Shown piece by piece: positions 2,472 to 12,838 of a DNA stretch of 64,000 bases (its first letter is position 1; each line of letters starts with the position of its first letter). The translations under genes and the position numbers were made by a program. The notes beneath the pieces were generated by a model that worked only from the letters and a program-made list of their open reading frames with translations, was not told the DNA's origin and did not search any database. The stretch comes from SAR116 cluster bacterium. Lineage in GTDB: Bacteria; Pseudomonadota; Alphaproteobacteria; Puniceispirillales; Puniceispirillaceae. Location: assembly GCA_004212735.1 (NCBI GenBank), contig SHBD01000001.1, positions 1 to 64,000 on the forward strand, in the 5' to 3' direction.

Positions 2472-3425
2472 CTATATCGCGCCCAGATTGATAAGAACAG
2501 TCTCCAGCTGTTCACGTGAGCAATTCTTCAGATGCACAGAGCAATTGTCCCTGTCCTCGTCCCACTCGATCGTCACAGTGACACCCGTGGCGGCGCTTGC
2601 CTTATTCTCGAGATCTCGAATATCAGCAGATTTTTCTGGCCGGGTTTTTGCGGCATGTGATCCATCACCCCTTTTTGCCAGTGCCTCAGCTTGGCGGGCT
2701 GACAGTCCCTTTTTCACAATCTGCCGGGCCAGTGCCGCGCAATCCTTGTGATTGATGATGGGGCGAACCTGTCCCATCGAAAGCAGACCTTCCATCACCA
2801 TGTCCTGAACTTTTTCAGGCAAGCTCAAAAGGCGTAGGAGGTTGGTAATATGACTCCTGGATTTTCCAATTATTTCAGATAATTGCTCTTGTGTATATTG
2901 ATGATGGTCCAGTAATTTCTGATAGCCCTGCGCCTCTTCAATAGCCGATAGATCAGCCCGTTGGATATTCTCGATAAGCGCAATTTCATAGGCCTCGGCA
3001 TCCGAAAATTCTCGCACGATAGCCGGCACAACATGGAGCTGTGCCAACTGCGCCGCACGCCATCGCCGCTCACCTGCGATCAGTTCAAACCGTGTCGGTC
3101 GATCGGGGCGTGGACGAATCAGAATTGGCTGAACAATTCCTTTCTGGCGGATTGAATCTGCCAATTCAGCCAACGCATCCTGGGCAAAGACACGCCGTGG
3201 TTGCCACGGGCCTGTATTGATCCACTCGATTGGAATTTCACTCAAACCAGTAAGCCTGTCGGGGGCCGCATTCGTCACATCACCATTTGACACAGCGATG
3301 CCAGCGGCAGCGGCCACACCTACATCACCAAGCAAGGATGACAGACCCCGCCCGAGGCCACGATTGCTCGCTGGGGTGCTGCCTTTTTTGGTGCTTGGGT
3401 CTTTGGTTTGTTTTTTATCAGTCAT
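2472..3425 (-). CDS. parB: Chromosome partitioning protein ParB
   Basis: CTP-dependent DNA clamp that loads at parS and spreads to organise the origin region for ParA-driven segregation. I place the start at the ATG 3425 (MTDKKQTK), which overlaps the parA stop by 4 bp, giving 317 aa. The frame is open further upstream, but that part lies inside parA. Visible features are the N-terminal GLGRGLSSLLGD motif that contacts ParA, the CTP-binding box with GERRWRA (about residues 118-124), the ENIQR box (about 150), and an HTH (QLSEIIGKSRSHITNLLRL) that binds parS. A short C-terminal dimerisation domain ends the protein. Two perfect parS sites lie 1.3 and 5 kb upstream, so target and binder are in one locus. 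Confidence 0.97.
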   Translation of the reverse strand: MTDKKQTKDPSTKKGSTPASNRGLGRGLSSLLGDVGVAAAAGIAVSNGDVTNAAPDRLTGLSEIPIEWINTGPWQPRRVFAQDALAELADSIRQKGIVQPILIRPRPDRPTRFELIAGERRWRAAQLAQLHVVPAIVREFSDAEAYEIALIENIQRADLSAIEEAQGYQKLLDHHQYTQEQLSEIIGKSRSHITNLLRLLSLPEKVQDMVMEGLLSMGQVRPIINHKDCAALARQIVKKGLSARQAEALAKRGDGSHAAKTRPEKSADIRDLENKASAATGVTVTIEWDEDRDNCSVHLKNCSREQLETVLINLGAI

Positions 3426-4198
3426 GCGGCGTGCCTTTCCTGCGTCAACACCTCGGCAGCCAACGCCGCGTAGGCCTGTGATCCAGGGCATTTCAGATCA
3501 TACATCAAAACGGGCTGTCCAAATGATGGCGCTTCTGATACCCGCACATTGCGGGGAATCACCGTGTCATAGACTAAATGCCCCAGATGCCCACGCACAT
3601 CATTGGCCACCATCGACGACAATCTGTTGCGCGTGTCATACATCGTTAGAACAATACCCTGCATTAACAAATGCGGGTTGAGGCTAGCGCGAACTGCTTC
3701 AATCGTGTGCATCAGCTGCGTTAGGCCCTCAAGCGCATAAAATTCACATTGCAAAGGAACCAGCACAGAGGTTGCGGCCGTCAGGGAATTTACTGTGAGC
3801 ATCCCCAACGATGGTGGACAATCAATAATAACATATTGATAATCATCACAAATTTCAGAAATCCCATCGGCCAGCTGATATTCGCGGCGTTCCATATCCG
3901 TCAATTCGACCTCTGCTGCGGATAAATCCACGACGGCCGGGATGATGTCCAATCGTGGCACCAGGGTAGATTGAACAGCCTCCCGCGCCGAACATTCGGA
4001 TGTGACCAGCCGATAGCTGTTAAATTTACGGTCGACAATGCCAAGCCCGGTGCTGGCGTTGCCCTGTGGGTCGAAATCAATCAACAGAACCTTGCGCCCA
4101 CAAGCGGCAAGCGCCGTCGCCAGATTGACCGACGTTGTGGTTTTGCCAACGCCACCCTTTTGATTGGCAACAGCGACAATTCGCGGTGAGGCAGCCAT
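3422..4198 (-). CDS. parA: Chromosome partitioning ATPase ParA
   Basis: Deviant-Walker ATPase that forms the nucleoid gradient along which ParB-parS complexes move. The start is taken at ATG 4198 (MAASPRIVAVANQKGG). Earlier in-frame starts would lie inside rsmG. The P-loop KGGVGKTTTSVNLA with the signature lysine is at about residues 15-28. Walker A' (LLIDFDPQGNAS) and Walker B (YVIIDCPPSLG) follow. At 258 aa it is a chromosomal-type Soj without an N-terminal HTH. It is separated from rsmG by one base and overlaps parB (ATGA), forming an mnmG-rsmG-parA-parB operon transcribed away from oriC. Confidence 0.97.
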   Translation of the reverse strand: MAASPRIVAVANQKGGVGKTTTSVNLATALAACGRKVLLIDFDPQGNASTGLGIVDRKFNSYRLVTSECSAREAVQSTLVPRLDIIPAVVDLSAAEVELTDMERREYQLADGISEICDDYQYVIIDCPPSLGMLTVNSLTAATSVLVPLQCEFYALEGLTQLMHTIEAVRASLNPHLLMQGIVLTMYDTRNRLSSMVANDVRGHLGHLVYDTVIPRNVRVSEAPSFGQPVLMYDLKCPGSQAYAALAAEVLTQERHAA

Positions 4199-4199
4199 T

Positions 4200-4844
4200 T
4201 TACAGCTCCGTACTGGGGTGGCGAGACGTGTCGAGCTCAAGGACCGCACCATCCTCACTCGTTACACTTGGATAAATGCGATACTCTATAGTGGGGTAGC
4301 TTTGTAAAACGGTCAATTCCTCTTGTAGTGATGCTCCCTTTAAAAACAGACATCTCTCAACAGATGGCAATTGTCTTTCCAGTAATTTCAGAAGTCGTTC
4401 GACAGAGGCCAACGCCCGTGCTGTTACAATATTGGCTCCCAATGTCGGAATTGCCTCAATCCTGGCATTCTTGACTCTGGCAGTCAGACCCAGTTCGCGG
4501 ATGACTGTTTGCAAAAAGACCGTTTTGCGCTGGTCTGATTCAACCAAGGTGAGGCTATTGCCAGTGATGATTGACAGCACAAGCCCGGGAAAGCCTGCAC
4601 CACTGCCGATGTCGAGAATGTGGGCATCATTTTCGGGAAGAAAAGATACCAGCTGCGCCGAATCAAGAACATGCCGGCGCCACACATCGGCCAGCGTTGA
4701 CGAGGAGACAAGATTGATCCGTGGTTGCCATTTTTCTAGTAGCGCTAAATATAATGTTAATTGGTCAATTGTTTCACGTGAAACATTAAGTTGATCGACC
4801 ACACCCTGATCAAGCGGGATTTTCCCAGCGACGCTCACCCTCAT
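4200..4844 (-). CDS. rsmG: 16S rRNA (guanine-N7) methyltransferase RsmG
   Basis: SAM-dependent methyltransferase (GidB) for m7G527 in the 530 loop of 16S rRNA. It is 214 aa, in the family range. The SAM-binding motif [17 protein letters not shown] is at about residues 71-87. It is preceded by [23 protein letters not shown], a strongly conserved RsmG segment. The start overlaps the mnmG stop by 4 bp. A perfect parS lies in the 5' part of the gene and is read in frame as VSRET (about residues 21-25), so this stretch of the N-terminal helix is dictated by the ParB target. Confidence 0.96.
4770..4785. promoter_or_regulatory. parS site 1 (ParB-binding centromere, inside rsmG)
   Basis: TGTTTCACGTGAAACA, a perfect 16-bp palindrome identical to the widely conserved chromosomal parS consensus. 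It is about 7 kb from the inferred oriC and 1.3 kb upstream of the parB start. It lies in the rsmG coding region. Confidence 0.96.
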
Positions 4845-8131: not shown

Positions 8132-8270
8132 CAGGGTTGCTCCAAATTCTCTTTCACTGGACTACAAATCTCCCTAGACTTATCTTTAATCCAACCTTTC
8201 AGCAAGTTTGTTTGTCTGGGTGCTGTTCCTTGATTGGTGGCTAACACTTAACCATAAACAGGAAATTGTG

Positions 8271-8771
8271 ATGATGAACCATTTTCAAACAAGTTTTCAC
8301 TCACCCCTTGGCTGGATACGTGCGGTCAGCAACGGCACCTCCCTCATTCGCCTAGATTGGGATCAGACCCGTTGGGACGACCCAGATAAACCCGATGATG
8401 TTTCACGTGAAACAATCGGCCAGCTAAAAGAATATCTTGCTGGCGACAGGGTTGGCTTTGAGTTGCCAATTAACCCTGAGGGAAAATCAGCAATCGCGCG
8501 GCATTGGCTAGATGTTATGATGCATATCCCGTATGGTAGCACCCTTAGCTACAAGGAATTTGCCATTGCAGCGGGAAAACCAAAGGCGCCACGCGCGGCT
8601 GGCACCGCTTGTGCCTCCAACCCGATTCCGATCATTTATCCCTGCCACAGGGTGGTAAAATCAGATGGAACAATGGGGCATTATGGTGGGGGAAGCTCAT
8701 TACCACCTGACAATGCAGATAATCTTGCCCGTAAAATGGCGTTGATTTCCCTTGAGCGCCAATTTTCCTAG
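8271..8771 (+). CDS. ogt: Methylated-DNA--protein-cysteine methyltransferase
   Basis: Suicide repair protein that takes the alkyl group from O6-alkylguanine in DNA onto its own Cys. The active-site motif [10 protein letters not shown] is present, preceded by the DNA-binding helix with the arginine finger ([13 protein letters not shown]) and followed by MGHYGGG. The ATG at 8271 with AGGAA at 8260-8264 gives 166 aa. The frame is open upstream only through TTG. It lies between mnmE and rho, a pair that is closer in several relatives. Codons 43-48 or so are a perfect parS read as VSRET. Its stop overlaps the rho stop (CTAG), so the two genes converge with no spacer. Confidence 0.93.
8399..8414. 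promoter_or_regulatory. parS site 2 (inside ogt)
   Basis: Second perfect TGTTTCACGTGAAACA, identical to the site in rsmG and 3.6 kb from it, and about 3.4 kb from the inferred oriC. It is in frame with ogt and again encodes VSRET. Confidence 0.96.
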
Positions 8772-10588: not shown

Positions 10589-11617
10589 TTATGACTTTCT
10601 AACCCATCGAATCATCTGTTCGACGTTACAGATTGGTGTTGGCGGCGTAATTCCATGTCCGAGGTTGAAGATATGCGGCCGATCATTAAAACTATCAAGT
10701 ATATGATCAATTGATTTTGTCATATCCGAACCGCCGACAAGCAAACTAAGTGGATCCAAATTTCCCTGTACCGGCATGTTGTTCGGCAGGACGTTATTAA
10801 CCCACACGACGTCAGTCATATGATCAATCGCCAGCGCGTCGATTTCTGCCTCTTCTGCATAAGCGATGATCCCTTCACCAATGCCTTTTGGAAAACCAAT
10901 AATTGGCTGTTTTATGCCTTGTTTTCGCAATGCTTCTATAATTCGGCGAACTGGCGCAATAACAATTTGGTCACGCCGTTCTGCGGGTACCGCACTTGCC
11001 CAGCTGTCAAACAACATCAACACATCGGCACCGGCTCTGGCCTGCACCATTAAAAAATGGATTGTTGCTTCTGTCACATAATCAAGAAGTGCTTCAAATT
11101 CTTTTGGATGGGACCATAGCCATTGCCTCGTATCAGCAAAATCACGCGATGATCCACCTTCAATCATATAGGTGATGACAGTCCACGGGGCCCCGGCAAA
11201 ACCAATCAGGGCCTTCTCAGCGGCCAGTTTTGATCTTGTCAGTTGAACAGCTGTTCCAACAGATGCTAGGCGTGTGCCAATTGTATCAAGCAACGCCTCG
11301 TCGAGTCGCATATCAGCAGTCCAAGGCGTCAGTTGAGGACCAGTGCCAGGAATGAAATGTACATTCCTGTCAAGCGCCCAAGGAACCATTAAAATGTCAG
11401 AAAATATGATAGCTGCATCAAAATCAAATCGCTGGATCGGTTGTAAGGTTACCTCACAGGCCTTGTCTGGATTCAGACAGAAGGAGATAAAATCTGTCTG
11501 GGCTTGCCTGACCACGCGATACTCCGCAAGATATCGGCCTGCCTGTCGCATCATCCAAAGCGGTGGCCTTGATAGTTTCTCACCTGCTAAAGTGTTCATG
11601 AGTGGGGATGATATCAT
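10589..11617 (-). CDS. hemE: Uroporphyrinogen decarboxylase
   Basis: Cytoplasmic enzyme decarboxylating uroporphyrinogen III to coproporphyrinogen III, 342 aa as usual. The substrate-binding N-terminal motif PPLWMMRQAGRYLAEYR carries the invariant Arg residues. The second signature is GFAGAPWTVITYMIEGG. The catalytic Asp region (FSDILMVPWALD) and the C-terminal FNLGHGITP are present. It is the first gene left of the inferred replication origin and is transcribed away from it, exactly as in Caulobacter. ATG 11617 is the most upstream start; a second ATG six codons in cannot be excluded. Confidence 0.98.
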   Translation of the reverse strand: MISSPLMNTLAGEKLSRPPLWMMRQAGRYLAEYRVVRQAQTDFISFCLNPDKACEVTLQPIQRFDFDAAIIFSDILMVPWALDRNVHFIPGTGPQLTPWTADMRLDEALLDTIGTRLASVGTAVQLTRSKLAAEKALIGFAGAPWTVITYMIEGGSSRDFADTRQWLWSHPKEFEALLDYVTEATIHFLMVQARAGADVLMLFDSWASAVPAERRDQIVIAPVRRIIEALRKQGIKQPIIGFPKGIGEGIIAYAEEAEIDALAIDHMTDVVWVNNVLPNNMPVQGNLDPLSLLVGGSDMTKSIDHILDSFNDRPHIFNLGHGITPPTPICNVEQMIRWVRKS

Positions 11618-11674
11618 TAGGATCTCATTACTAAATAGATATTGGTATATATAGGTAGATGTTTTAGTAGTGCT

Positions 11675-11683
11675 TGTGAATAA
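11675..11683 (-). promoter_or_regulatory. DnaA box (TTATTCACA)
   Basis: Reverse-strand match to TTATNCACA with no mismatch, 58 bp from the hemE start codon, inside the candidate origin. Confidence 0.75.
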
Positions 11684-11836
11684 CAGCGTTTGCCCAAAAA
11701 ATCGCTATTCATCCACAGCCTTATCCCCATTTTTTCGTTTTGAATAGGTATATTTTTCAACATTATGCGATGTTAATCGCGACATTAAGATCTCGGTGTG
11801 ATTTTTTTGTCCACAGTTTTTAAACGTTAGAATTGA

Positions 11837-11845
11837 TGTGGATAA
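11837..11845 (-). promoter_or_regulatory. DnaA box (TTATCCACA)
   Basis: Reverse-strand copy of the strongest DnaA-box sequence. It lies 22 bp from a forward 8-of-9 copy at 11807-11815, separated by the AT-rich TTTTTAAACGTTAG stretch. Confidence 0.8.
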
Positions 11846-12004
11846 ACCAGCCCGTCATTAAATCTCTGGCATTTCATCCCCACAGCCGATCGGGTTGTAC
11901 CTGTGGTTTTACCGGATTTGTACACAAGAGGTCGTGACCCGAGCGAAGGCTGATTTTTGTGGATGATGAATTGGGGTGACAAGGTGCTGAGGAGAGGATA
12001 ATTT

Positions 12005-12838
12005 TTGCGAATGATGGCGACACCAAAAATTCATATTCACCTTGTATCCGACTCAACAGGTGAGACCGTTCATCAAATTTCGCGGGCGTGTCTGGCACAA
12101 TTCCCTGACGTTAAAACAACCGAGCATGTGTGGACACTTGTGCGCAGCCAGCAACACCTCGAGGCTATTTTTACCAGCCTTGAGCGTTATCCCGGGATAT
12201 TGCTGATGAGCATTCTCGACACTGATCTACGACGCAGGATCGAAGAAAAATGCGAAGCTTTGCTTGTACCACATGTCTCGGTGCTTGACCCGGTGGTTGA
12301 TCTTTTCGGCACTGTTCTTGGCCAAAGCTCGCGAAATAAGCCTGGTGGTCAGCGTCAGCTTGATGGTGATTATTATCGTCGGATCGCGGCGATAGATTTT
12401 GCCGTTAGCCATGATGATGGAATGAATATGGGTGCGTTGAAGGATGCCGATATTCTGCTTGTTGGTGTATCACGTTCCTCCAAGACACCGACCTCAATGT
12501 ATCTTGCTCACCGTGGCTACAAGGTTGCGAATTATGCGTTGGTACCCGGAATTCCATTCCCGATGCATCATCTCGATGGTTTGAACATTCTTGTTGTGGG
12601 GCTGACCAATGATCCAAAACGGTTGAGCCTTATCCGCCGCACTCGGCAGATTGCAATGTCTGACGATGCGAATGAGGGCTATGCGGATCTTGAGGCCATT
12701 ACCGAGGAGGTGCGCCAAGCGCGCCGCTTGTTCACTCTGAACCAATGGCCGGTTATTGATGTTACCCGGCGGTCCATTGAGGAAACAGCAGCGGCGATCA
12801 TTCAGGTCCACACCACTTGGAACGAAGGTCAGCACTAA
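12005..12838 (+). CDS. ppsR: Pyruvate, phosphate dikinase / PEP synthase regulatory protein
   Basis: DUF299 bifunctional ADP-dependent kinase/phosphorylase that switches PEP synthase or pyruvate phosphate dikinase off and on. The N-terminal signature IHLVSDSTGETV and the P-loop-like GVSRSSKTPTSMYLA (about residues 154-168) are both present. At 277 aa it is full length. Start choice is open. GGAGAGG at 11991-11997 is 7 nt from TTG 12005 but 13 and 16 nt from the ATGs at 12011 and 12014. This is the first gene right of the origin, as in Caulobacter and Rickettsia. The target dikinase is not in this window. Confidence 0.94.
   Translation: MRMMATPKIHIHLVSDSTGETVHQISRACLAQFPDVKTTEHVWTLVRSQQHLEAIFTSLERYPGILLMSILDTDLRRRIEEKCEALLVPHVSVLDPVVDLFGTVLGQSSRNKPGGQRQLDGDYYRRIAAIDFAVSHDDGMNMGALKDADILLVGVSRSSKTPTSMYLAHRGYKVANYALVPGIPFPMHHLDGLNILVVGLTNDPKRLSLIRRTRQIAMSDDANEGYADLEAITEEVRQARRLFTLNQWPVIDVTRRSIEETAAAIIQVHTTWNEGQH

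Follow-up and report, generated by a model that had tools for sequence, protein, structure and literature searches.

The 387-bp gap between hemE and ppsR, at positions 11618-12004 of the analyzed DNA, is almost certainly the chromosomal origin of replication (oriC) of this SAR116 alphaproteobacterium and is of the hemE/ppsR type. As an origin the locus is ordinary for alphaproteobacteria and is here placed in this genome; the part worth following is a short track at its hemE end rather than the origin itself. This three-base-phased track, 5'-T(A/T/G)G-3', occupies the position of DnaA-trios beside the hemE-proximal DnaA box, and the prospect that it is a DnaA loading site is, as judged from sequence, about even. 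The window referred to below is the whole stretch of 64,000 nucleotides, which forms the start of contig C1 (260,785 bp) in a 2.49-Mb draft genome of 66 contigs. The locus and its surroundings comprise:

3422-4258, minus strand: ParA-family ATPase gene (chromosome partition; best NCBIfam match ParA_partition at 8.5e-31, below cut-off)
4771-4784, no strand assigned: parS GTTTCACGTGAAAC, inside rsmG (motif search)
8400-8413, no strand assigned: parS GTTTCACGTGAAAC, inside an ogt-like gene (motif search)
10589-11617, minus strand: hemE, flanking gene (NCBIfam TIGR01464, above cut-off)
11618-12004, no strand assigned: oriC gap between divergent hemE and ppsR (from sequence, boxes and skew; layout common to relatives)
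12005-12838, plus strand: ppsR (DUF299/COG1806 kinase-phosphorylase family), flanking gene (NCBIfam NF003742, above cut-off)

The first-pass annotation described the gap as gene-free and AT-rich, with flanking genes transcribed outward. The first description stands insofar as no gene is called inside, but a 103-aa plus-strand open reading frame antisense to hemE extends 37 bases into the gap edge. The other two were borne out, with a GC content of 39.5% in the gap compared to 45-58% in 2-kb windows across the whole window, and with hemE read on the minus and ppsR on the plus strand. The PpsR equivalog model scores below its own cut-off on the latter gene. On the ppsR side the next genes are maf, coaE, dnaQ and secB, in the order given previously; on the hemE side lie hemJ, rho, the ogt-like gene, mnmE, mnmG, rsmG and the ParA-family gene. 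The ogt-like methyltransferase gene (8208-8771), found between mnmE and rho in this origin-side cluster, is one of the two that carry a parS.

Cumulative GC skew along C1, with the window joined to the rest of the contig, has its minimum some 300 bp away from the gap, at 11322, in agreement with the earlier proposal that this is oriC; on that side only 11.6 kb separate the gap from the nearest contig end. Skew was also sampled in two relatives with single-contig genomes (42 stretches of 20 kb in G017 and 16 in G010). In G017 the hemE side has negative and the ppsR side positive skew, and the sign switches between stretches 1471001-1491000 and 1492001-1512000, with the gap located at about 1.4915 Mb. 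Negative values begin at about 0.26 Mb and last up to the gap; positive values continue from there to the end of the sequence and on through 0.2 Mb, with two stretches departing from the pattern (+0.002 and -0.017). The second change, near 0.2-0.26 Mb, lies roughly half a chromosome from the gap, as expected of a terminus. Similarly, skew in G010 changes sign at its own gap, in the same orientation as in G017 and without departures among the 16 sampled stretches. The whole draft genome contains just two parS sites at ≤1 mismatch (4771 and 8400), 3-7 kb from the gap, and exact parS sites were likewise found beside the gap in the stretches read from G017 (two) and G010 (eight, with another far away). 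Both parS sites of the present genome are intragenic, each under an in-frame VSRETI peptide; the eight of G010 fall within about 5 kb beside the origin (L101 3525-8427), compared to two here.

DnaA boxes at no more than one mismatch from the consensus TTATCCACA are distributed along the gap as follows:

11675-11683, minus strand: DnaA box TTATTCACA, adjoining the track (8/9 against TTATCCACA; box present here in 5/5 genus members)
11709-11717, plus strand: DnaA box TCATCCACA, 34 nt from the first box (8/9; same spacing in 5/5 genus members)
11721-11729, plus strand: DnaA box variant TTATCCCCA (8/9; variant present in 16/28 gaps)
11807-11815, plus strand: DnaA box TTGTCCACA (8/9 against TTATCCACA)
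11837-11845, minus strand: DnaA box TTATCCACA, perfect (9/9)
11958-11966, minus strand: DnaA box TCATCCACA (8/9 against TTATCCACA)

Measured against TTATCCACA, the gap thus holds one perfect box and five 8-of-9 boxes, and four more boxes have two mismatches. Two perfect boxes had been reported previously, a count that applies under the looser TTATNCACA (to TTATTCACA and TTATCCACA) but falls to one under TTATCCACA. The clustering itself is clear: six boxes at ≤1 mismatch were found where 0.16 are expected, none of 2000 dinucleotide shuffles reached six, and the gap is the densest box cluster on C1, every other 380-bp stretch of the 260,785 bp having at most two. In the relative G017 the gap has only three boxes at ≤1 mismatch, and one other sampled stretch of that genome (L075) likewise has three within 380 bp. 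Among the box forms of SAR116 gaps the variant TTATCCCCA ranks second in frequency, with 21 occurrences in those 16 gaps compared to 9 for the next variant, and may represent a second class of DnaA site.

Overall, the skew minimum, the box cluster, the nearby parS sites and the gene arrangement in relatives uphold the oriC reading. Many bacteria initiate replication beside dnaA, and this general frequency is what speaks for an origin at another place, such as next to dnaA (C1:94855-96330, about 83 kb off), with the gap being merely a DnaA-regulated intergenic region; such an origin is highly improbable given that C1 92000-98500 has two scattered boxes at ≤1 mismatch (94432 and 95678) compared to six in the gap, and that skew is positive on either side of dnaA, unchanged there, while the cumulative minimum of the contig lies at 11322.

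The hemE-gap-ppsR arrangement was present in 28/28 SAR116-family loci holding both genes, the present one included. These came from the best 30 ppsR loci among 48 matches in 47/61 genomes, two of the 30 being left out with hemE absent from the fetched stretch. The arrangement is also kept in 15/16 further loci from the order, the remaining one being cut by a contig end and dropped, and in 34/40 loci across the class (one per family). The class loci were chosen among the plus-strand matches of a search in which 166 of 241 genomes had a match; six loci without hemE in range and two gaps longer than 800 bp were dropped from the class counts. Such conservation agrees with the origins of Caulobacter and Rickettsia (PMC1914354). 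The Caulobacter origin sits between the same two genes, hemE and a DUF299/COG1806 gene, as the first-pass annotation had stated, and Cori of Caulobacter crescentus and other alphaproteobacterial hemE/COG1806 origins share with the present gap their flanks, DnaA boxes and an AT-rich stretch (PMC1914354). Five CtrA sites and one IHF site are described for Caulobacter (PMC1914354); in the present gap, neither TTAA-N7-TTAA nor a match to one degenerate IHF consensus was found. The two G-boxes and five weak W-boxes of Caulobacter (PMC10797057) contrast with the TTATCCACA-like boxes found here.

Control through CtrA or GANTC sites was considered and rejected for this gap: GcrA is encoded in the genome, yet the gap has neither GANTC nor TTAA-N7-TTAA. 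The closest CtrA-like pair, N8-spaced at 11773, is altered already in the nearest relative (G003). Across gaps, TTAA-N7-TTAA was counted 4 times in 43 order gaps compared to 2.9 expected, and 3 times in 32 class gaps compared to 1.1 expected. Raw counts of GANTC were 13 in 15,938 bases of order gaps versus 78 in 13,774 bases of class gaps, and GcrA is present in 18/21 genomes of the SAR116 order.

At the hemE end of the gap, two further features adjoin the first box:

11630-11655, no strand assigned: AT-rich stretch, predicted DNA unwinding element (from sequence; AT-rich block in the same place in relatives)
11656-11670, plus strand: DnaA-trio-like track TAG ATG TTT TAG TAG, putative in function (from sequence; phased track in relatives)

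Four spacer nucleotides, TGCT, separate the track from the box at 11675. The first-pass annotation was silent on a trinucleotide track beside this box. Within the genus the hemE side has a fixed layout: an AT-rich block comes first, then a track phased on G, a spacer of 4 nt and a minus-strand box, with a second, plus-strand box exactly 34 nt past the first in all five members. In the basal unwinding system (BUS) of Bacillus subtilis a box is followed by DnaA-trios, 3'-GAT-5' (PMC8287927). The present locus shares with it the box, the short spacer (4 nt, in the 0-16 nt range), the trinucleotide track and the adjoining AT-rich region, and the G of 3'-GAT-5' is kept in most trios (4/5 in the window). 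Unlike the constant A of B. subtilis, the middle base here is A, T or G and rarely C. Under the rule of at least three consecutive NAN trios (PMC8287927), the register next to 11675 falls short, since TAG, TAG and TTT give two. Trios without a middle A are frequent among relatives; for example, G017 reads TAG TTG TTT TCG TAG and other genera read TTG TTG TTG.

The trios were first read by eye in aligned relatives and tested afterwards. Each gap was scored by its best six consecutive in-phase (A/T)NG trimers, with the middle base free and with boxes masked for the strand test. The plus strand scored higher than the minus strand in 35/43 order gaps (1 reverse, 7 ties; p = 1e-9), a value that overstates the evidence because these gaps are related sequences, not independent ones. 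The class sample, which takes a single genome from each family, offers the fairer test, and there the plus strand prevailed in 24/32 gaps (4 reverse, 4 ties; p = 2e-4). A NAN score had no such strand preference (11 plus versus 17 minus in the order, 7 versus 14 in the class). T(T/G)G alone, which leaves out A-middle trimers, favored the plus strand 19 to 2 in the class but hardly so in the order (20 to 10, p = 0.1). Taken one at a time, with boxes unmasked, the gaps gave a modest signal, only 21/43 in the order and 10/32 in the class scoring above shuffles of themselves (p<0.05). The reversed-sequence control was elevated (4.14 and 3.97, compared to 3.20 and 3.47 in shuffles), presumably because it keeps the three-base period. 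Before box masking, the minus strand of order gaps had an excess of TTG-TGG pairs, probably due to the boxes themselves (TTGTGGATAA), which were masked afterwards.

A three-base register emerged around TAG in the class gaps. Comparing in-phase (±3) with out-of-phase (±4, ±5) neighbors, we found TAG at 28/232 versus 4/456, TTG at 16/232 versus 5/456 and TGG at 13/232 versus 5/456. TCG was not enriched in phase next to TAG in these gaps (1/232 versus 2/456), and their minus strand had no significant in-phase enrichment next to TAG. The same neighbors were weaker in the order gaps (TAG, p = 0.03; TTG, p = 0.01; TGG, p = 0.18). Among order windows scoring at least 4 (37/43 gaps, 179 trimers) the middle base was A in 36%, T in 44%, G in 18% and C in 2%; among class windows at the same threshold (27/32 gaps, 133 trimers) the values were 30%, 33%, 35% and 2%. 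C makes up 17% of bases in order gaps and 23% in class gaps, compared to the 2% of track middles.

These patterns bear on whether the track works in the manner of Escherichia coli, with box-held, IHF-bent DnaA binding a T-rich single strand via TTGT/TTATT rather than via trios. In E. coli oriC an AT-rich DNA unwinding element (DUE) precedes the R1 box, whose sequence on that strand is TGTGGATAA. The present gap resembles that arrangement, its AT-rich predicted DUE standing next to a TGTGGATAA-type box that is likewise read on this strand, and TTGTTG repeats include TTGT, a motif bound by E. coli DnaA on single-stranded DNA (PMC10797057). On the other hand, TTGT needs no register, whereas TAG, TTG and TGG are enriched in the class at ±3 from TAG over ±4 and ±5; no such register is named for the TTGT/TTATT motifs in the parts of PMC10797057 that describe them, and no match to the one IHF consensus used occurs in the gap. 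We regard an E. coli-like mode of action as rather unlikely.

Coupling to a box was assessed in the gaps scoring at least 4 of 6. A correctly oriented box lay within 12 nt after the track in 40% of order gaps (37 gaps) and 43% of class gaps (27 gaps), compared to 9% at random; with the opposite orientation the figure was 4-5%, and on the 5' side of the track it was 0.00. Over half of the scoring gaps had no box within 12 nt of the track at ≤2 mismatches, and the next correctly oriented box for these uncoupled tracks was at least 53 nt off or absent. Alternatively, the track could belong to the promoter or leader of hemE and be conserved for expression of that gene rather than for DnaA loading. 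In the order gaps the distance from track to hemE is indeed steady (interquartile range 27-38 nt), steadier than that to the nearest box, and where ppsR is absent it is the hemE side that is kept. Across the class, however, the distance to hemE ranges from 15 to 262 nt while 14/27 tracks lie -1 to 13 nt from a box, and the 43% coupling involves a box on the 3' side only and in a single orientation (0.04 for the opposite one), which makes a role confined to hemE expression unlikely. The notion that the track is steadier relative to the box than to hemE was itself discarded, as it fails once the search range for boxes is unlimited.

Two further sets of genomes extended the comparison of the DnaA-trio-like track. 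Family f4 of the SAR116 order, which had no ppsR match in the nine genomes examined, was not used in framing the idea. The origin-like layout upstream of hemE persists in this family (L186-L194), where the next long reading frame is of about 200 aa; an AT-rich region was found there in 9/9 genomes and boxes at ≤1 mismatch in 8/9. The track was stronger on the plus strand in 9/9. Within one f4 genus the same place reads TAG TAG TAG TAG TAG in one genome and TTG TTG TTG in another, a difference that would be expected were A and T equivalent at this place, and TTG was not enriched next to TAG in f4 (2/72 versus 4/144). The second set, chosen mainly for divergent DnaA, consisted of 30 genomes, of which 25 had a ppsR match and yielded 20 gaps; two were already in the class sample, leaving 18. 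Here (A/T)NG favored the plus strand 8 to 3 with 7 ties and T(A/T/G)G did so 13 to 1, only 3/18 gaps scored at least 5, C occupied 7/43 middles, and no significant in-phase TAG neighbors were detected in the 18 gaps. Given this weak result, the track is common in the class and not universal. As a contrast outside the class, we took 20 regions upstream of dnaA from non-alphaproteobacterial genomes (19 usable). Ten of the 19 had no box at ≤1 mismatch, so that many of these regions are probably not origins, and they offer no guide to the middle-base rule.

We then turned to the protein that would read the track. DnaA of this genome aligns without gaps over the single-strand-binding segment to a chain of 8btg, which we take to be the B. 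subtilis BUS structure from its match to the residues named in PMC10721633. In B. subtilis, Asn187 contacts the amino group of the middle adenine, and Arg202 and Glu228 contact the G (PMC10721633). At the aligned positions the present DnaA has Tyr, Lys and Glu, and thus lacks Asn187 as the reader of the middle base. Among 77 other alphaproteobacterial DnaA proteins (60 proteins typed plus 17/18 of a further set), position 187 is Tyr in 51, Phe in 9, Ser in 5, His in 4, Trp in 4, Val in 3 and Asn in 1, while Lys202 and Glu228 occur in 77/77. Outside the class, 20 DnaA proteins have Thr (6), Ala (5), Gln (5), Ser (2), Asn (1) or Leu (1) at position 187, so that Asn or Gln is found in only 6/20. 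All 20 of these also have Lys or Arg at position 202 and Glu at position 228, and the two residues are therefore not special to the class. In this sample of aligned proteins, loss of the amide at 187 is likewise not class-specific; the aromatic residue is. The link between residue and track is imperfect, as the DnaA of SAR116 genome G007 has Asn187 and yet its gap reads TAG TTG TTT TAG TGG. Replacing the middle A by C keeps activity in B. subtilis, and G or T lowers it (PMC10721633). The alphaproteobacterial middle base, with A, T or G and little C, is suggestive of nearly the reverse preference, as far as gap sequences can indicate.

Taken together, it is possible, though we hold this only tentatively, that many alphaproteobacterial origins open via an array of degenerate DnaA-trios with a conserved G and with A, T or G, seldom C, at the middle position, the array being read by a DnaA without the Asn187 amide that retains Lys202 and Glu228. 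In the present genome, DnaA would bind the cluster of boxes in the gap, and from the minus-strand box at 11675 a DnaA filament would extend onto the plus strand of the track at 11656-11670, opening the AT-rich stretch at 11630-11655. Helicases would then load and two forks depart in opposite directions, and ParB acting at the two parS sites would separate the new origin regions. Deviant DnaA-trios, for instance ones without a middle adenine, were suspected by Pelliciari and colleagues in 2021 (PMC8287927), and degenerate alphaproteobacterial trios, if true, would be of this kind. No alphaproteobacterial DnaA-trios were found in the titles and opening abstracts of the DnaA-trio literature since 2019, though an earlier listing may exist in supplements or in the 2016 Nature paper. 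In the parts examined, papers naming both Caulobacter and DnaA-trio gave no alphaproteobacterial trio, the relevant text of the paper naming both DnaA-trio and Alphaproteobacteria concerned other groups, and the one with Sinorhizobium in its title merely cited the 2016 trio paper. By title, none of the literature on SAR116 and replication origins dealt with a SAR116 origin.

Placing the origin provides a replication map for an uncultured marine group, and a zero point for coverage-based estimates of growth rate and for analyses of gene dosage and strand. The DnaA-trio rule with its fixed middle adenine comes from Bacillus, and many alphaproteobacteria appear to use the trio device with another reading rule and another base-reading residue. 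A different alphaproteobacterial rule would allow a direct test of how DnaA recognizes origin DNA, and would alter how origin-finding programs search for the unwinding site in this class.
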